Assembly (NCBI GenBank): GCA_028870355.1
Contig: JAGWPU010000121.1
Location: 1-49,878, forward strand
Origin: Gammaproteobacteria bacterium
Lineage (GTDB): Bacteria; Pseudomonadota; Gammaproteobacteria; Steroidobacterales; Steroidobacteraceae
Length of the DNA: 49,878 nucleotides
Reading direction: 5' to 3'
The notes beneath the pieces were generated by a model that had not been told where the DNA came from, made no database searches, and was given only the letters and a program-made list of their open reading frames with translations. Shown here piece after piece: positions 9,579-17,728 of the stretch (position 1 is its first letter; each line of letters starts with the position of its first letter). The position numbers and the translations under genes were made by a program.

Positions 9579-10043
9579 ATGCCCACGTTTGTCTACATGA
9601 CGAACTGCGACGGCTGCGGATACTGCGTCGATATCTGCCCGTCCGACATCATGCACATCGACCCGACGTACCGGCGTGCGTACAACATCGAGCCCAACAT
9701 GTGCTGGGAGTGCTACTCCTGCGTGAAGGCCTGCCCGCAGAACGCGATCGACGCGCGCGGCTACGCGGACTTCGCGCCGCTCGGCCACAGCGTCCGGGCG
9801 CTGCGCGAGGAGGAAAAGGGCACGATCGCCTGGCGGATCCGTTTCCGCGACGGACGCGAGAAGCACTTCCTGTCGCCGATCCGGACCACGCCCTGGGGAT
9901 CGATCAAGGGCCCGGCCGAATACGCGCCCCCGAGCGCGGATGCGATGAAATCGCAGGAGCTCGCGCACGAACCCGACGCGCTGAAGATCGCCGCGCTGCC
10001 GACGCTCGACCGCAATCGCCTCAAGAAGGGAGTCGTCGCATGA
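9579..10043 (+). CDS. aprB: Adenylylsulfate reductase beta subunit AprB
   Basis: AprB is the electron-transfer subunit of dissimilatory APS reductase, which interconverts APS with sulfite and AMP. It carries two [4Fe-4S] clusters: Cys10, 13, 16 and 20 in CDGCGYCVDIC, and Cys42, 45, 48 and 52 in CWECYSCVKAC. The remainder, with ALREEEKGTIAWRIRFRDG and a tail reaching over AprA, matches the family in length (154 residues). A GAGGAG ribosome site precedes the ATG. The stop overlaps the aprA start by four bases (ATGA), indicating tight translational coupling for equimolar subunits. Confidence 0.97.
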   Translation: MPTFVYMTNCDGCGYCVDICPSDIMHIDPTYRRAYNIEPNMCWECYSCVKACPQNAIDARGYADFAPLGHSVRALREEEKGTIAWRIRFRDGREKHFLSPIRTTPWGSIKGPAEYAPPSADAMKSQELAHEPDALKIAALPTLDRNRLKKGVVA

Positions 10044-11872
10044 GCCGCAAGACCGTATTCGTCGATTCGGACATCCTCGTCGTCGGCGGCGGGATGGCCG
10101 GTTGCGGAGCCACGTACGAATCCCGCTACTGGGGACGGGATCTGAAGATCGTCTGCGTCGAAAAGGCGAACATCGAGCGCAGCGGCGCGGTCGCCCAGGG
10201 GCTGTACGCGATCAACTGCTACATGGGCATGCAGTGGGGCGAGAACCAGCCCGAGGATCACGTGCGCTACGCGCGCAACGATCTCATGGGCCTGGTCCGG
10301 GAAGATCTCGGCTACGACATCGCCCGCCACGTCGACGCGACCGTGCACAAGTTCGAGGAGTGGGGCCTGCCGATGATGCGCGACCCCGAGACCGGGCGTT
10401 ACCAGCGCGAAGGCAAGTGGCAGATCATGATCCACGGCGAGAGCTACAAGCCGATCGTCGCGGAGGCCGCGCGCAAGGCCGCAAGCGAAGTCCACAACCG
10501 GATCATGGTCACCCACCTGCTGATGGACTCGAAGCGCCCGAACCGGGTCGCGGGCGCCGTCGGCTTCAATGTCCGCACCGGGGATTTCTACGTGTTCCGC
10601 GCGAAGGCGGTGATCGTCGCCGCCGGCGGCGCATCGCACATCTTCAAGCCCCGCGCGGTCGGCGAAGGCATGGGTCGGACCTGGTATGCGCCCTGGAGCA
10701 GCGCGTCGGCCTATGCGCTGCCGATCCTCGCGGGCGCGAAGATGACGCAGATGGAGAACCGGATCGTGCTGACCCGGTTCAAGGACGGCTACGGCCCGGT
10801 CGGCGCGTACTTCCTGCATTTGAAGACCTACACCCAGAACGCGTATGGCCAGGACTACGAGGCGTTCTGGCGCGATTCGATCGAGAAGATGGTCGGCGAC
10901 TACGTGAATCACCATCCGGTGCCGACCTGCCTGCGCAACCACGCACTGCTCGAGGAGCTCAAGGCCGGCCGCGGCCCGATCCGCATGGTCACGAAGGAAG
11001 CGTTCAAGGACCCGCACAAGGAGACCGTCGGCTGGGAGAACTTCCTCGGCATGACGATCGGCCAGGCGATCGTGTGGGCATCGCAGAACATCGACCCGAA
11101 GGAAATCAATCCGGAGCTCACCACCTCGGAGCCGTACGTGATGGGCTCGCACGCGACCTGTTCGGGCGCGTGGGCGAGCGGACCGGAAGACTACGCGCCG
11201 TCCGAGTATCAGTGGGGCTACAACCGGATGATGACCGTGGAGGGCCTGTTCGGCGCCGGCGACACCATCGGCGGCACCGCCCACAAGTTCTCCTCCGGCT
11301 CCTTCACCGAGGGCCGGATCGCTGCGAAGGCCGCGGTCAAGTACGTGAACGAGATGGGTCAGGACCGGCCCGCGGTCAGCGAGTCCGAGTACGAGGCGCT
11401 GCGCAAGCTCGTCTACCAGCCGCTCGAGACCTACCGCGTCGGCCGCAACGAGATCGTCGCGGGCACCGTCTCGCCGAGCTTCATCCTGCCGCTGCATGGC
11501 CTGCAGCGCCTCGAGAAGATCATGGACGAGTACGTCGGGGGCATCAGCGCCCACTACACGACCAACGAGCCGATGCTGACCCGCGGCCTCGAGCTCCTCC
11601 AGATGCTGAAGGAGGACATGGCCTGCATCGGGGCCCCCGACCTTCACCAGCTGCAGCGAGCGTGGGAACTGCACCATCGGGTGCTCGCGTCCGAGTGCGT
11701 GACGCACCACACCCTGTTCCGCCAGGAGACGCGCTGGCCCGGCTATTACTACCGGGGCGACTTCCCGAAGCTCGACGACAACGACTGGCACTGCTTCACC
11801 CTGTCCCAGTACGACCGCGACAGCGGCCGCTGGCAGATGGAGAAAGCGCCGGTCTACCACATCATCGACTGA
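10040..11872 (+). CDS. aprA: Adenylylsulfate reductase alpha subunit AprA
   Basis: AprA is the FAD-containing catalytic subunit of APS reductase. In sulfur oxidisers it runs in reverse, joining sulfite and AMP to form APS. The FAD-binding motif DILVVGGGMAGCGATYES sits near the N-terminus. GAVAQGLYAINCYMG, the RDLMG-type NDLMGLVREDL and DTIGGTAHKFSSGSFTEGRIAAK are typical AprA segments of the fumarate reductase superfamily. Length is 610 residues, as expected. Its start is embedded in the aprB stop. The next gene is sat, after 27 bp. No qmo or dsr genes are in the window, so the electron partner here is presumably AprM. Confidence 0.98.
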   Translation: MSRKTVFVDSDILVVGGGMAGCGATYESRYWGRDLKIVCVEKANIERSGAVAQGLYAINCYMGMQWGENQPEDHVRYARNDLMGLVREDLGYDIARHVDATVHKFEEWGLPMMRDPETGRYQREGKWQIMIHGESYKPIVAEAARKAASEVHNRIMVTHLLMDSKRPNRVAGAVGFNVRTGDFYVFRAKAVIVAAGGASHIFKPRAVGEGMGRTWYAPWSSASAYALPILAGAKMTQMENRIVLTRFKDGYGPVGAYFLHLKTYTQNAYGQDYEAFWRDSIEKMVGDYVNHHPVPTCLRNHALLEELKAGRGPIRMVTKEAFKDPHKETVGWENFLGMTIGQAIVWASQNIDPKEINPELTTSEPYVMGSHATCSGAWASGPEDYAPSEYQWGYNRMMTVEGLFGAGDTIGGTAHKFSSGSFTEGRIAAKAAVKYVNEMGQDRPAVSESEYEALRKLVYQPLETYRVGRNEIVAGTVSPSFILPLHGLQRLEKIMDEYVGGISAHYTTNEPMLTRGLELLQMLKEDMACIGAPDLHQLQRAWELHHRVLASECVTHHTLFRQETRWPGYYYRGDFPKLDDNDWHCFTLSQYDRDSGRWQMEKAPVYHIID

Positions 11873-11899
11873 TCGCGCGGCGTCGCGCCGGGACCTTCG

Positions 11900-13078
11900 A
11901 TGTCACGACTCGTACCGCCGCACGGCTCGACCTCGGTCAGACCGCTGCTGCTGCCGGAGACCGAGCGAAGCGAGGAGCTCGAGCGGGCGGCGCGCCTGCG
12001 AGCGGTGCCGCTCGACTCGCGCGCGGTGTCGGACGTGCTGATGTTCGCGATGGGCGCGTACACGCCCCTCGACGGCTTCATGGGGCACGACGACTGGCGG
12101 GGCGCCTGCGTCGAGATGCGCCTGGCCGACGGCCTGTTCTGGCCGATCCCGATCACCTTGCCGGTGAGCGAAGCGCTCGCGGGCGCGGTCCACGTCGGCG
12201 AGGAAGTCGCGCTCACCGAAGCGGACGGCGGCCGGATCCTCGCGATCCTCGACGTGCGCGAGAAATACCGGATCGACCGGACGATCGAGGCCGAGCACGT
12301 CTATCGGACCACGGACCCGAAACACCCCGGCGTCGCGAAGGTCCTGAATCAGGGCGCGGTGAACCTCGCGGGTCGCGTGATGGTGCTGAGCGAAGGCGAC
12401 TACCCGTCGCGCTATCCCGACCTGTACCTCCGGCCGGCCGAATCGCGGGCGCTGTTCCTCGAGAAGGGCTGGTCGCGGGTCGCAGCGTTCCAGACGCGCA
12501 ATCCGATGCATCGCAGTCACGAGTACCTCGTGAAGATCGCGCTGGAAGTGCTGGACGGCGTGTTCATCCACCAGGTGCTCGGCAAGCTCAAGCCCGGCGA
12601 CATACCGGCCGAGGTCCGCACCCGCGCGGTCCAGGCGATGGTCGATCATTACTTCCGCCCGGGCACGGTGATCCAGGCGGGCTATCCGATCGAGATGCGC
12701 TACGCGGGGCCACGCGAGGCCCTGCTGCACGCGTTGATCCGCCAGAACTTCGGGTGCTCGCACCTGATCGTGGGCCGCGATCACGCCGGCGTCGGCGACT
12801 ACTACGGTCCGTTCGACGCCCACCGGATCTTCGACCAGCTCTGGGACGGCGCGCTCGAGACCCAGGCGCTGAAGATCGACGTCACGTTCTACTGCCGCCG
12901 CTGCGCCGGCATGGCGACCGCGCGGACCTGCCCGCACGACGCGCGCGAGCACGTCGCGATCTCCGGCACGAAGCAGCGCGAGATGCTGTCCACCGGCGCC
13001 GAGATCCCCCCGGAGTTCAGCCGACCCGAGGTCGTCGCGATCCTGAGGGAGTATTACCGCAGCCTGCAGGGCGCGTAG
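11900..13078 (+). CDS. sat: Sulfate adenylyltransferase (dissimilatory ATP sulfurylase)
   Basis: Sat releases sulfate from APS with pyrophosphate, generating ATP by substrate-level phosphorylation, the final step of reverse-direction sulfite oxidation. The 392-residue homo-oligomeric form has the active-site motifs QTRNPMHRSHE near residue 197 and GRDHAGVG near residue 292. There is a C-terminal CRRCAGMATARTCPH segment, whose cysteines resemble the zinc site of prokaryotic Sat. There is no APS kinase domain. The start codon is ATG at 11900 with only weak ribosome-site similarity. Its place directly behind aprMBA argues for an energy-generating rather than an assimilatory role. Confidence 0.97.
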   Translation: MSRLVPPHGSTSVRPLLLPETERSEELERAARLRAVPLDSRAVSDVLMFAMGAYTPLDGFMGHDDWRGACVEMRLADGLFWPIPITLPVSEALAGAVHVGEEVALTEADGGRILAILDVREKYRIDRTIEAEHVYRTTDPKHPGVAKVLNQGAVNLAGRVMVLSEGDYPSRYPDLYLRPAESRALFLEKGWSRVAAFQTRNPMHRSHEYLVKIALEVLDGVFIHQVLGKLKPGDIPAEVRTRAVQAMVDHYFRPGTVIQAGYPIEMRYAGPREALLHALIRQNFGCSHLIVGRDHAGVGDYYGPFDAHRIFDQLWDGALETQALKIDVTFYCRRCAGMATARTCPHDAREHVAISGTKQREMLSTGAEIPPEFSRPEVVAILREYYRSLQGA

Positions 13079-13093: not shown

Positions 13094-13951
13094 ATGATCG
13101 TCGCGCAGATCACCGACACCCATATCGTCCACGGCGTTCCCGACGCCGGCCGGCGCATCGCGGATCTCGCACGCACGATCGCGGACATCAATGCGCTCGA
13201 TCCGCTGCCCGACGCGATCATCCACACCGGCGACATCGCGCACGGTGGCCGCCCCGAGGACTACGCGCTCGTCGCCTCGCTGTTCGCGACCGCCCGCGTC
13301 CCGGTGTACGTCGCACCGGGCAACCGCGATCACCGCGAGCACCTGCGCGACGCGTTCGCGGGCGGGCCCTGTCGGGCGGCGGAGCCGCGGTTCCTCGACT
13401 ACTCGGTCGAGGAGTTCCCGGTGCGCCTGCTCGCGCTCGACACGGTGACCCCCGCGAGCAACAAGGGCGAGTTCTGCGTGGAGCGGGTGCAGCGCCTGAT
13501 CGAGCGGATCGACGCGGACCCCGCGAAGCCGATCGCCGCATTCATGCACCACCCGCCGTTCGTGGTCACGGTCGGTCCCGATCCGCTGAACTTCACGAGC
13601 CCCGAGGCGCTGCACCGGCTCCAGCACGCGTTGCAGCACTCGGGACGCGTGATCGCGGTGTTCTGCGGCCACGTGCACCGCTCGACCGGCGGCTGGATCG
13701 GCGCGATCCGGGCGATGGTCGCAACCAGCACCGCGACGACGTTGCGCAAGGGGGAATTTCCGGCGCACCTTCGGGACCGGCCGATCTATCACCTGCACCG
13801 CTACGACGCCGCGTTCGGGTTCAGCACCGAGGCACGGATCGTCGCGGAGGCCGACGACGACGGTGCCGTGAGCGCCGTGGGCTCAGGTGCGCGCGGGGCG
13901 GCCGGGCGCGATCGGCGCGGGGATCCGGCCGAGCACGGGCTCGAGCGCTAG
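13094..13951 (+). CDS. CpdA-like metallophosphoesterase
   Basis: A class III cyclic-nucleotide phosphodiesterase-type calcineurin-fold enzyme. The metal-binding motifs appear in order: ITDTHI near residue 7, HTGDIAHGG near residue 44, APGNRDHRE near residue 76 (His of the usual GNHD is Arg), FMHHPPF near residue 150, and CGHVHRS near residue 192. This layout fits cAMP phosphodiesterases such as CpdA, but other phosphodiester substrates are possible. It begins 15 bp after sat and may be transcribed with the apr-sat operon. The last 30 or so residues are low-complexity and encoded by DNA that also encodes the opposing fusion protein's C-terminus (69-bp overlap). Confidence 0.86.
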   Translation: MIVAQITDTHIVHGVPDAGRRIADLARTIADINALDPLPDAIIHTGDIAHGGRPEDYALVASLFATARVPVYVAPGNRDHREHLRDAFAGGPCRAAEPRFLDYSVEEFPVRLLALDTVTPASNKGEFCVERVQRLIERIDADPAKPIAAFMHHPPFVVTVGPDPLNFTSPEALHRLQHALQHSGRVIAVFCGHVHRSTGGWIGAIRAMVATSTATTLRKGEFPAHLRDRPIYHLHRYDAAFGFSTEARIVAEADDDGAVSAVGSGARGAAGRDRRGDPAEHGLER

Positions 13952-16690
13952 ACCGAGCGCGAGCAGCGCCCGATCGGCGCCGGCCGGCGCGTCGAACTCC
14001 AGCGCGATCGGCAACCCGCCACGCGACAGCCCGATCGGCATCACGAGCCCGGGGACGCCGGCGGTGCTGCCGGGCGCGATGTTGCGGGCGATCGCATTCG
14101 CGAAGGGCACCGATCGCCCCGCGATCTCGACCGTGACGTCCTCGCCAATCCGCGTCGCCGGCACCCGCGTCGCCGGGAACACGATCGCCGCGACCCCGGT
14201 GCGCTCGAAGTAGTCGCGGACCGCGGTGCGCAGCTGCGGCAGGTAGCGATCGCGCGCCTCGGTGTACACGGCCTCCGTGACGAAATGCGGCGAACCCGGC
14301 AGGACCTCGTCCTCGAACACCGCGCGAATGTCGGGGCTCGCCTCGCGAACGAGCTGGTCGAAACTGACCGCCGGATCGTAGCGGTGCAGGTACTTCGCGA
14401 GCGAGAGGCGCACGTCGTGATCCTGCACCGGGATCGTCGTGTGCGCGATCAGGGAGGCAAGACCCGGCAGTTGCGTCTCGACGATCTGCACGCCCGCGCC
14501 GCGCAGTCGCGCGAGCGCCTCCTCGGTCAGCCGCTCGACGTCCGGGTCGAGGCCCGTGAACCAGTAGTCGCGCACGACACCGAGCCGCACGCGCCGCAGG
14601 TCGACCCGCGGCAGCGGGCGCCGATCGCCCGAGATCACCGCGTCGAACAGTGCCAGATCCGCGACGCGACGCGCATGCGGACCGAGTTGATCGAACAGCG
14701 GCGTGATCGGAATGCAGCCCTGCGTCGAGTAGCGCCCCGTGGTCGGGCGCAAGCCCACGATCCCGCACAGCGCGGCCGGCACGCGGATCGACCCCTCCGT
14801 GTCCTCGGCGACGCCGAGCGGCGCGATCCGCGCGGCGATCGCCGCCGCCGTCCCGCCGCTGCTGCCGCCCGGGATCCGATTCGTGTCGTAGGGGTTGTGC
14901 ACGGCCCCGAACGCGAGGTTGTCGCTGGTCCAGCCATAGGACAGCTCGTGCAGGTTCGTCTTGCCGAGCACGATCGCCCCCGCGGCCCGCAGCGCGGCGA
15001 CCAGCGGCGCATCCTCGCGCGGATGGAAGTGCCGCAGCGCCGGCGTACCGCCGGTGGTCCGGTACTCGGCGGTGTTCACGCTGTCCTTCACCGGAATGGG
15101 CAGCCCGAACAGCGGGCCGGGTACGACGCCCGCCCGTCGTTCGCGATCGCGCGCGCGCGCGTCCGCGAGCACGCGATCCGGCTCGAGCGTGATGAACGCG
15201 TTCAGATCGCGCCACGTCTCGCACCGCTCGAGCACCGCCTGCGCGTAGCGCTCGACCGTGAGATCCCCGTTGCGCAAGGCCGCGACGACCTCGACCGCAC
15301 TCCACTCGTGCATCGGAACCCGTCCTCCTCGTGCGATCCCGTGCCGGCGCGCCGTCGCGACCGTGGTCGCCGCCGCGGCGCCGACGAGAAACTCGCGACG
15401 GCCGATCGTCCCACCCGTCGTCGTCGCCGCCGCTCGACCGAAGCGTGCGGGAGCATACGGTTCGGGGTCGAGGCCGGGCGGCGTGCCCGACATCAGGTCC
15501 GCGAGCAGTTGCCCCGATCCGGCCGCCAGCGTCCAGCCGAGCGCACCGTGACCGGTGTTCAGCCAAAGATTCCCGATGCCCGTGGCGCCGATGATCGGGA
15601 CGCCGTCGGGCGTCATCGGACGCAGGCCGCACCAGGGCCGGCCCTCGCCCGGATCGAGCGCCGACCGCGGCAGCACCTGCGAGACCAGCCCCGCGAGGTT
15701 GCGCACCCGAACCGCCGGCAGACCGAGGTCGTAACCCGCGAACTCGGCGGTGCCCGCGACTCGCAGGACGTTCTGCAGCGGAACGACGACCGCGTGCAGG
15801 TCGTCGTCCGAGATCGGGATCCGCAGCGGCGGATCGCGCGGAGGCCGCTCGAACGTGAGCGAGTAACCCTTGACCGGCTGCACCGGCAATCGCACGCCGA
15901 CCGACCGCAGCAGCATCGGCGTATAGCTCCCGGCGGCGACGACCCCGTGGTCGGCGCTGAGCGACCTGCCATCGCCGAGGACCACGCTCACGCGCGCGCC
16001 GCTCGCGTGGATCTCGCGCACCTCGGCACCGAAGTGGAACTCGACGCCGAGTTCGCGCGCCACCGCGGCGAGCGCGACGCAGTACGCGTGCGCGTTGCCG
16101 ACGCTGTCGAGCGGATAGTGAATGCCGCCGACGAGCTGCGCGCCGATCGGCGCGAGTGCGGGCTCGAGCGCGACCGTGTCCTGCGGATTCAAGGGCCGGA
16201 ACTCGAGCCCGTCGGCGCGCAACCGCTCCGCCCACGCAAGCGCGGCCTCGAGCGCCGCGGCGTCACGGAACACCCGCAAGGTCCCGGTCGCGGCCGCGCC
16301 ATACTCGATCCGCGTCTGCGAACGCAGCGCCTCGAGCGTCGCGCGCGAATGCAGCGCAAGGCGCAGGTTCCTGCGGGTGTTCGCCTCGTAGCGCGCGGGG
16401 TGCGAGTGCCGCAGGAAATCGATGCCCCAGCGAGCGAGGCGTGGCATCGCCTTCAGCCGCAGCTGCAGCGCCGCGTCGCGCCGGCCGAGCGAGCGCACGA
16501 GCTCCCGGGTGCAGCCTGGTGCGTTCCACGGCTCGGGCATGCTCGGGCTGAGCAGCGCGCCATTCGCGTAGCTCGTCTCGAGTCCCGGCGCGTGGCGCCG
16601 CTCGACGACTGCGACCCGCCAGCCGCACCGTCCGAGGAAATACGCGGTGCTGATCCCGAGCAGACCGCCGCCGATCACCAGCGCCTTCAC
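13883..16690 (-). CDS. Fusion: DadA-like D-amino-acid dehydrogenase + amidase-signature hydrolase, internal Tat-like motif
   Basis: One uninterrupted 935-residue frame holds two enzymes. Residues 1 to about 415 form an FAD-dependent D-amino-acid dehydrogenase-like oxidase: dinucleotide motif VIGGGLLGISTAYFL, ETSYANGALLSPS, PVQPVKGYSLTF, and the late RPMTPDGVPIIG and LNTGHGALGWTLAAGSG. Residues from about 460 form an amidase-signature hydrolase. Its triad is Lys535 (PVKDS), Ser610 (GGSSGG) and Ser634 (EDTEGSIR), with the same spacing of 75 and 24 as in fatty-acid amide hydrolase. Between them, residues 429-450 read GRREFLVGAAAATTVATA, a twin-arginine-type signal that makes no sense at this internal place. 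It starts with GTG overlapping the alkB stop. It may be a natural fusion of two former genes or the result of a lost stop/start. Confidence 0.88.
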   Translation of the reverse strand: MKALVIGGGLLGISTAYFLGRCGWRVAVVERRHAPGLETSYANGALLSPSMPEPWNAPGCTRELVRSLGRRDAALQLRLKAMPRLARWGIDFLRHSHPARYEANTRRNLRLALHSRATLEALRSQTRIEYGAAATGTLRVFRDAAALEAALAWAERLRADGLEFRPLNPQDTVALEPALAPIGAQLVGGIHYPLDSVGNAHAYCVALAAVARELGVEFHFGAEVREIHASGARVSVVLGDGRSLSADHGVVAAGSYTPMLLRSVGVRLPVQPVKGYSLTFERPPRDPPLRIPISDDDLHAVVVPLQNVLRVAGTAEFAGYDLGLPAVRVRNLAGLVSQVLPRSALDPGEGRPWCGLRPMTPDGVPIIGATGIGNLWLNTGHGALGWTLAAGSGQLLADLMSGTPPGLDPEPYAPARFGRAAATTTGGTIGRREFLVGAAAATTVATARRHGIARGGRVPMHEWSAVEVVAALRNGDLTVERYAQAVLERCETWRDLNAFITLEPDRVLADARARDRERRAGVVPGPLFGLPIPVKDSVNTAEYRTTGGTPALRHFHPREDAPLVAALRAAGAIVLGKTNLHELSYGWTSDNLAFGAVHNPYDTNRIPGGSSGGTAAAIAARIAPLGVAEDTEGSIRVPAALCGIVGLRPTTGRYSTQGCIPITPLFDQLGPHARRVADLALFDAVISGDRRPLPRVDLRRVRLGVVRDYWFTGLDPDVERLTEEALARLRGAGVQIVETQLPGLASLIAHTTIPVQDHDVRLSLAKYLHRYDPAVSFDQLVREASPDIRAVFEDEVLPGSPHFVTEAVYTEARDRYLPQLRTAVRDYFERTGVAAIVFPATRVPATRIGEDVTVEIAGRSVPFANAIARNIAPGSTAGVPGLVMPIGLSRGGLPIALEFDAPAGADRALLALGLALEPVLGRIPAPIAPGRPART

Positions 16691-17310
16691 GCGTCGTGCT
16701 CTGCCGGTGGCGCCGTCCCGAGGATCCGCCGGAACGTGAGATTGACGCGCGGCCCGCAGGGGCGCGCCTGCTTCGGCAGCCCATGGCGCCAGTACCGCTG
16801 TGTCTCCCCGCTCATCACGAGGAGACTACCCGACCCGAGACGCAGCCGCCACGAGCACGTCCGCGGGTCGGTCCGCGACCGGAAGACGAACGTGCGGGGT
16901 TCACCGACGCTCACCGAGGCGATCACCGGCCGCTCGCCGAGCTCGGGCTCGTCGTCGCTGTGAAAGCCCATCCCGTCGCGGTGGTCCCGATAGTAGTTGG
17001 CGAGCACGCCGTTGAAGCGCAGGCCGAGCCGTCGCTCGACGCGCTCGCGAATCGCCCGCAGCGTCGCCGTCCACGGCAGCGGCTCGTGGCGGACCCGCGA
17101 GTACCGGTACGCGGCCCCCGGATCCCCGTACCAGGCGAGCAGCCGCGGTTGCTCGTACCGGCGTCCCCACAGGACGATCGACTCCCGCCGCCAGTCGAGT
17201 TCGGCGACGAGACGGCCGAGCAGCCGGTCGGGCGTCGCGCCGAGGTCGAAGCACGGCTCGTAGTCGATCTGCGCGTTCGCGAGCGGCAAGCGTTGCATCG
17301 TCCCACTCAT
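16687..17310 (-). CDS. alkB: AlkB-family 2-oxoglutarate/Fe(II) dioxygenase
   Basis: An AlkB/ALKBH2-type oxygenase that repairs alkylated bases by oxidative demethylation. The double-stranded beta-helix iron ligands are His and Asp in GFHSDDE near residue 117 and His in YWRHGLPK near residue 174. The 2-oxoglutarate-binding arginines lie in PRVNLTFRRI near residue 190. FNGVLANYYRDHRDGMGFHSD is the hallmark segment. Two nearby ATGs (17310 and 17298) are possible starts. Its stop overlaps the GTG of the downstream fusion gene by four bases, so the two are translated together, although a functional link between DNA repair and D-amino-acid/amide metabolism is not obvious. Confidence 0.93.
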   Translation of the reverse strand: MSGTMQRLPLANAQIDYEPCFDLGATPDRLLGRLVAELDWRRESIVLWGRRYEQPRLLAWYGDPGAAYRYSRVRHEPLPWTATLRAIRERVERRLGLRFNGVLANYYRDHRDGMGFHSDDEPELGERPVIASVSVGEPRTFVFRSRTDPRTCSWRLRLGSGSLLVMSGETQRYWRHGLPKQARPCGPRVNLTFRRILGTAPPAEHDA

Positions 17311-17404: not shown

Positions 17405-17728
17405 ATGAGATCCACCCTGTCGCGCCGCGAGGCGCTCAAGCATATCGCGATCGCCGCGGGCGCGCTCGCGGTGGCCCGCACCACGACCGCCGCGCCATCC
17501 CTGCCGCACGTGAATCCGAAGGATCCGATGGCGGTCGGCGTCTCGTATCACGAGAACGTCGCGACGCTCAAGGCGTCCGAGTTCCCGCAGTACAAGCCGG
17601 GCGACAAGTGCGCGAACTGCGCTCAGATCGGCGGCACCGCCGGACAGGCCTGGCGGCCGTGCAACATCTTCGCCGGACAACTGGTGAGCGCGAACGGCTG
17701 GTGCTCGGCGTACTCGCGTAAGACCTGA
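17405..17728 (+). CDS. High-potential iron-sulfur protein (HiPIP)
   Basis: HiPIPs are small periplasmic [4Fe-4S] electron carriers, typical of purple sulfur bacteria and some sulfur and iron oxidisers. The precursor is 107 residues with a twin-arginine signal (SRREALKHIAIAAGALAVA, cleavage near residue 30). The mature part has the four cluster cysteines Cys69, Cys72, Cys86 and Cys100 in the pattern C-x2-C-x13-C-x13-C, with the usual GGWC-like end reading NGWCSAY. A GGAGAG ribosome site precedes the ATG by seven bases. Tat export fits a protein folded with its cluster in the cytoplasm. The nearby apr-sat operon suggests it serves lithotrophic electron flow. Confidence 0.95.
   Translation: MRSTLSRREALKHIAIAAGALAVARTTTAAPSLPHVNPKDPMAVGVSYHENVATLKASEFPQYKPGDKCANCAQIGGTAGQAWRPCNIFAGQLVSANGWCSAYSRKT

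Follow-up and report, generated by a model that had tools for sequence, protein, structure and literature searches.

The 49,878-nucleotide window analysed here (positions 1 to 49,878 of contig JAGWPU010000121.1, GenBank assembly GCA_028870355.1) comes from a gammaproteobacterium of the family Steroidobacteraceae, the draft genome of which comprises 2.93 Mb in 162 contigs. On its reverse strand, a single reading frame of 935 codons runs from a GTG start at 16690 to a TGA stop at 13883 with zero internal stops and joins a DadA-like D-amino acid dehydrogenase to an amidase-signature enzyme. The first-pass annotation, made from the letters of the window, had proposed this single frame, and the same frame exists in three further species. 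The junction holds a segment resembling a signal of the twin-arginine translocation (Tat) pathway, a Shine-Dalgarno (SD)-like site and an ATG codon. The features of the locus are as follows.

13883..16690, reverse strand: whole fused gene, 935 codons, GTG to TGA; same frame in three other species.
16687..16690, reverse strand: GTGA, in which the stop of the upstream AlkB-like 2OG-Fe(II) oxygenase gene overlaps the GTG that starts the fused gene; from the sequence.
15440..16690, reverse strand: DadA-like D-amino acid dehydrogenase domain, codons 1-417; from the NF001933 score, the stops of relatives and the AlphaFold drop at 419.
15404..15439, reverse strand: linker, codons 418-429, freely changing; ratio of nonsynonymous to synonymous substitution rates (dN/dS) 0.87 for 417-429 in four species.
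15353..15403, reverse strand: Tat-signal-like segment, codons 430-446 (GRREFLVGAAAATTVAT), under purifying selection; dN/dS 0.205.
15314..15352, reverse strand: linker, codons 447-459, basic, drifting at the protein level and containing the SD site; dN/dS 0.96, net charge +4 to +7.
15324..15329, reverse strand: AGGAGG, SD-like, 10 nt before codon 460; anti-SD pairing -11.8 kcal/mol.
15311..15313, reverse strand: ATG codon 460, proposed internal start of a free amidase; ATG in all four fused species.
13886..15313, reverse strand: amidase-signature domain, codons 460-935 (476 aa); PF01425 and alignment to GatA chain 4wj3_A.
15086..15088, reverse strand: Lys535 of the triad; aligned to GatA, invariant in the four fused species.
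14861..14863, reverse strand: Ser610, cis-Ser of the triad; aligned to GatA, invariant in the four fused species.
14789..14791, reverse strand: Ser634, nucleophile of the triad; aligned to GatA, invariant in the four fused species.

Judged by sequence, both enzymes of the fusion are complete. In the DadA half, the DAO model PF01266 matches residues 3-399 with 234.5 bits, and the NCBIfam model for D-amino acid dehydrogenase (NF001933 / PRK00711) matches residues 1-420 with 402.1 bits, above its cut-off of 383. The GxGxxG FAD-binding motif occupies residues 7-12, and G7, G9 and G12 are invariant among 18 aligned sequences. This half had been described as a complete DadA-like FAD oxidase; complete it is, while dehydrogenase suits it better than oxidase, as the NCBIfam cut-off is passed. 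It is predicted to oxidise D-amino acids and to pass the electrons to quinone. Fifteen standalone DadA relatives terminate 0-13 residues past the site at which the linker sets in. In the AlphaFold model residues 1-418 are well predicted, confidence drops at 419, and residues 419-457 have no confident structure. The amidase half of that model is unusable, being covered by only 4 of the 18 aligned rows (mean pLDDT 56.7).

The amidase half matches PF01425 (Amidase) over residues 484-910 with 311.6 bits (gathering score 27). Lys535, Ser610 and Ser634 align gap-free to residues 79, 154 and 178 of S. aureus GatA chain 2df4_A, which we take to be the GatA catalytic triad; this ungapped alignment confirms the triad with family spacing that had been read from the letters. 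Counted from codon 460, the first residue of the amidase aligns to residue 2 of GatA chain 4wj3_A. Residues 460-926 score 520 bits against the indoleacetamide hydrolase model IaaH (NF005688). We do not file the fused amidase as an indoleacetamide hydrolase, because the equivalog cut-off of 532 is missed; two standalone relatives tested on this model also fall below it (529.3 and 506.9).

The genus was surveyed in 23 genomes at a threshold of E <= 1e-60. Four carry the whole fusion (G000, G006, G016 and G022), 12 have a standalone amidase and 7 have neither half above threshold. All four fused proteins have 935 residues, their alignment is gapless with no indels, and the other three are 85-87% identical to that of the window. 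A contig scan queried by two DadA peptides, with the best 80 of 283 relatives kept, matched the same three relatives in three full-length copies, the metagenome bins DBS1-1.bin95, ZJ5.bin5 and BP8.bin24. Across 396 genomes of the order, full-length matches are confined to the same four fused genomes, among the matches listed; 369 genomes of the class gave no fusion besides the window's own, and none of 506 matching plasmid records covers more than 80% of the query. The search for the same fusion in related genomes, which the first-pass annotation had proposed, thus found it in three other species, and these share the 935-codon frame rather than all having two separate genes, the arrangement it had named as counting against a fusion. 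The fused rows form one group in the tree of 44 amidases (support 100/99), based on a careful search, and in the tree of 70 DadA proteins (support 100), based on a quick one; by these trees the fusion has a single origin. The fused amidases sit among standalone amidases of the genus and family, and the fused DadA halves group with five standalone DadA proteins (L154-L158) of one other genus in the family. Both halves are under purifying selection among the four species, with a dN/dS of 0.233 for DadA and 0.166 for the amidase. In four of those five standalone DadA loci (L154, L155, L156 and L158) the next gene belongs to one family (cluster c17); the L155 member is an S9 prolyl-oligopeptidase-type peptidase, another hydrolase paired with DadA.

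The amidase orthologues reveal the source of the junction. An N-terminal twin-arginine signal starts 28 of 32 standalone orthologues by manual count, the low-identity rows L002, L031, L033, L036 and L180 being excluded. Because the DadA relatives end at the linker and the amidase orthologues carry the Tat signal, the fusion retained all of DadA and the whole amidase precursor. On this comparison a formerly exported amidase is what was captured by gene fusion, which bears out one of the two options of the first-pass annotation. A DDAH-like gene stands immediately before the amidase in 8 of the 12 standalone congeneric loci, and gamma-glutamyltranspeptidase genes lie near it in 5. Three of the four fused genomes retain the DDAH-like gene (77% identity; G006 has only a 28% match), with no amidase relative in the 10-16 kb around it. 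Since it remains without an amidase nearby, the amidase left its old site and now follows dadA. The old neighbourhood in L200, L201 and L202 (G000, G016 and G022) keeps the DDAH-like gene, which is flanked in L200 by M20 peptidase and TPR-sulfotransferase genes; a TPR-sulfotransferase gene lies behind it in L202 too and was not found in L201. The same-genus standalone amidases L018, L023, L024 and L028 (G003, G020, G004 and G012) have no twin-arginine signal, and export seems from the sequences to have been lost more than once among same-genus amidases.

At the junction, residues 431-435 (RREFL) conform to the minimal Tat motif given in PMC10924467, R-R-x-phi-phi. RREFL with the following VGAAAATTVA is present in all four fused species, one A-to-V change allowed, and the hydrophobic stretch after RREFL has a mean hydropathy of 1.65-2.03. 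Motif and stretch together bear out a Tat-like signal inside the junction region. The dN/dS among the four species is 0.869 for codons 417-429, 0.205 for codons 430-446 and 0.963 for codons 447-459, with dS ranging from about 0.24 to 0.38 across regions of the fused gene; the 417-429 flank has the same dS as the segment and four times the dN. In the segment 3 of 17 columns vary; the flanks have 17 variable columns out of 26 (Fisher p 0.004). Five standalone congeners, taken as a control, give the same pattern, the rates being 0.138 (N-terminal Tat signal), 0.565 (spacer) and 0.109 (domain). By these rates the Tat-like segment is still under purifying selection. The first-pass annotation had spoken of a trapped signal; its location inside the chain stands, and the notion that it is merely trapped does not, since it is still selected.

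The 13 residues behind the hydrophobic stretch carry a net charge of +4, +4, +7 and +5 in the four fused species, and 23 correctly read standalone signals range from -3 to +3; rows L024, L141 and L150 were set aside from the 26, which did not include L020, L136 and L143. According to the accessible text of PMC5449189, low hydrophobicity and C-terminal positive charges mark internal Tat-dependent segments of membrane proteins, and by this analogy the match in charge and hydrophobicity is suggestive. The linker charge is partly written by the GGAGG site itself, which encodes Gly-Arg-Arg or Gly-Gly-Arg. TatC is found in all four fused genomes. The fused protein may be a Tat substrate; its segment follows 430 residues and so has no free N-terminus.

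Codon 460 is ATG in all four fused species and stands at the start of the amidase domain, at the very position of the N-terminus of its cytoplasmic relative GatA. Pairing of the preceding 20 bases with the anti-Shine-Dalgarno sequence has an energy of -11.8 kcal/mol in the window and of -11.0, -11.0 and -11.0 kcal/mol in the others, the core being AGGAGG 10 nt before the codon in the window and GGAGG 9 nt before it in the other three. The called genes of the four species contain 424 in-frame ATGs in their interior, of which four reach -11, and all are codon 460; among 40 Met codons conserved four-way, the runner-up has -7.3. Only 2.7% of 73 called gene starts reach -11, so that the site beats about 97% of them. 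Over all codon positions, 0.4% reach -11 and 3% of 9041 reach -8. Random synonymous recoding of eight codons with the codon usage of each species gave non-independent P values of 0.0078, 0.0006, 0.003 and 0.0018. AGGAGG in the window and GGGGAGG in the other three are one base apart in register and encode different residues. The latter three species use AGG there, 0.4-2% of their Arg codons, and in the window species the site contains two GGA codons, the GGA codon making up 9% of Gly. The site is kept in a shifted register, so that the SD persists in spite of changed residues.

Extrapolated without gaps, the codon-460 column holds Leu in 31 of the 32 standalone orthologues, Pro in 1 and Met in none; none of the 19 ATGs from 25 codons before to 7 after this column reaches -11. 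The one at -8.2 belongs to L028, an amidase without signal, and is probably its true start. Since Met and SD are lacking in standalone orthologues, the ATG-SD pair is derived in the fused clade. Codon 460 thus offers an in-frame start with an SD at workable spacing, conserved in all four species, and from it we infer a free 476-residue amidase. The first-pass annotation had found no ATG, GTG or TTG in frame just before the signal and had allowed for internal initiation. The former is correct, as the window has none between codons 401 and 430, and the nearest upstream ATG is codon 400; the latter gains support as a start at codon 460, downstream of the signal and with a strong SD, and not as a start before it. 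Other candidates are codon 424, which is GTG only in G006, and ATG codon 400, which is present in all four and is not favoured, with weak pairing (-3.2, 0.4, -3.2 and -3.2) and a Met also in the unfused DadA L157. The fused-gene GTG itself overlaps the AlkB-like gene at 16687-17310, which matches PF13532, and the GTGA overlap suggests that translation of the fused gene is coupled to it.

The neighbours of standalone amidases bear on whether the two enzymes belong together. DAO-family genes (five in all) lie near the amidase at 4 of 23 standalone loci (L048, L049, L163 and L171). In L048 (5836-9903) the stop codon of a Tat-type amidase is followed at once, with no gap, by a gene for a DAO + GCV_T protein similar to sarcosine/dimethylglycine dehydrogenases. 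The L171 amidase, closest to the fused ones in the tree, lies directly behind two amino-acid-type ABC-transporter genes, and some 2 kb downstream of it there is a DAO gene. At the overall frequency of DAO genes (385 in 93.3 Mb of 23 genomes), about 1.2 would be expected near 23 amidases, and for four DAO-bearing loci P is about 0.03, uncorrected for several neighbour families. Among 101 DadA loci, 100 gave a DadA match, and an amidase relative was present as well only in three fused ones; the two sets of neighbour counts came from different search methods. Functional coupling of amidase and dehydrogenase has modest support from these gene neighbourhoods.

We think it somewhat probable, from the sequence comparisons above, that one gene encodes both a DadA-(Tat-like)-amidase fusion and, as a second product, an amidase without signal, and that the Tat-like segment is still used in the fusion. 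Initiation at the GTG, probably in coupling with the AlkB-like gene, would yield the 935-residue fusion, in which the retained segment would act as a targeting or membrane-attachment element between the enzymes. Ribosomes on the linker AGGAGG would start at codon 460 and make the 476-residue signal-less cytoplasmic amidase. With less confidence, the amidase may split an amide to yield an amino acid, which the dehydrogenase half may oxidise, delivering electrons to the respiratory chain. DadA enzymes feed electrons into the respiratory chain.

Several observations weigh against this two-product reading. With the limits 430-450 of the first-pass annotation, the contrast in variable columns weakens to 6 of 21 against 14 of 22 (p 0.03). 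The dS is lowish around the Tat-like segment (0.24 vs 0.35), and the constraint may partly be at the nucleic-acid level. The Tat signal model PF10518 scores 15.0 bits in the window and 19.6, none and 13.4 bits in the others, against a cut-off of 22.7, though two standalone Tat signals score comparably weakly (15.1 and 10.3); TIGR01409 is passed by G006 only and has no match in the window. In the window the SD of the full-length GTG is weak (-2.8), the background gene calls come from a simple in-house caller, and the four sequences amount to about two independent observations of the SD, as three share it by descent. A widespread DadA-amidase partnership was not found: in flanks of at most 8 kb, and less where the contig was short, 0 of 97 DadA loci without the fusion have an amidase relative.

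Among the alternatives, it is somewhat unlikely that the full-length bifunctional enzyme is the only product, with the SD-like site slowing ribosomes at the domain border for folding or being there by chance, and with the Tat-like segment serving as a structural helix or linker. The site does fall on the domain border, internal SD-like sites are not rare at the level of -8, and the lack of confident structure at 419-457 suits a flexible linker. The same lack does not suit a structural helix, however, and the site is paired with an ATG at 9-10 nt, new in the fused clade, at a strength that few codon positions and no other internal ATG reach. RR-x-F-L is also exactly conserved in all four species.

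A further possibility extends the two-product reading, and we regard it as unlikely. The fused protein may span the membrane, with DadA on the cytoplasmic face and the Tat segment carrying the amidase to the periplasm, while the codon-460 start adds cytoplasmic amidase. If true, one gene would put amidase on both sides of the membrane, the outer copy would be tethered to the dehydrogenase that consumes its product, and a Tat signal would function after a large soluble folded domain, in a chain that has no transmembrane helix before the signal.

That the enzymes act separately, the fusion being a neutral loss of the dadA stop and the amidase coming mainly from codon 460 in replacement of its old start, is quite improbable. 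The strong internal SD-ATG site favours it, the linker flanks drift freely as it expects, and a signal-less amidase is viable, given that 4 of the 32 standalone orthologues lack the signal and the L028 start pairs at -8.2. A neutral read-through linker should nevertheless not hold RREFLVGAxAATTVA under selection, and the linker has no stop codon or indel in any of the four species. An assembly or sequencing error, by which a stop would have been lost or the frame displaced, is rejected as highly implausible, even though all four fused genomes are draft assemblies and three are metagenome bins, because four separately assembled species agree on the frame at 13-15% protein divergence, which makes resequencing against a frameshift unneeded.

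Comparison with known systems places the fusion among several precedents. It resembles DadA (NF001933 / PRK00711) in matching the whole length above cut-off with an invariant GxGxxG, but it runs on into linker and amidase where relatives stop after their ..ARF end. Standalone Tat-exported indoleacetamide-hydrolase-like amidases of the same bacterial family are 57-78% identical to the amidase half and have the same triad; their signal comes first, whereas in the fusion it is internal and a Met and SD arose at the domain start. Internal Tat signals are described, in the available portions of PMC5449189 and PMC13186574, for the actinobacterial Rieske protein and for Sec-Tat dual-targeted membrane proteins. 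As far as those texts go, these proteins likewise have a twin-arginine motif within the chain, modest hydrophobicity and a positive cluster behind it, but in them an even number of transmembrane helices comes before the Tat segment, while here a soluble FAD enzyme does. Bacterial N-terminal proteoforms from internal starts are reported in PMC11005335. Within the accessible text of that report, the likeness is one gene with a long and a short in-frame product, the latter inferred here; the difference is that our short form would be a whole enzyme of a two-enzyme fusion, without the export signal retained by the long form. Fusion enzymes, internal starts and internal Tat segments each have precedents, and no report of the DadA-Tat-amidase combination was found in the open-access literature, judged by titles and abstract openings.

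Around the fused gene, a phosphodiesterase-like frame at 13094-13951 on the forward strand overlaps its 3' end tail to tail by 69 bases (13883-13951), and the homologue of this frame also extends into the fused gene in the three other fused species. Elsewhere in the window, the genes at 9579-13078 and 17405-17728 resemble, judged by sequence, adenylylsulfate reductase, sulfate adenylyltransferase and a small iron-oxidase-type high-potential iron-sulfur protein; the Iro model gives 27.5 bits, under its cut-off of 100.

The locus presents a fusion caught with both older modes of expression seemingly kept, a selected export signal inside the chain and a new internal ribosome-binding site that would restore the separate amidase. 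It ties little-known exported amidases to amino-acid dehydrogenases of the DAO family. Two questions can be addressed with it, namely whether an internal Tat signal is functional when a folded soluble domain precedes it, and by what means a fused gene goes on delivering one of its parts alone.

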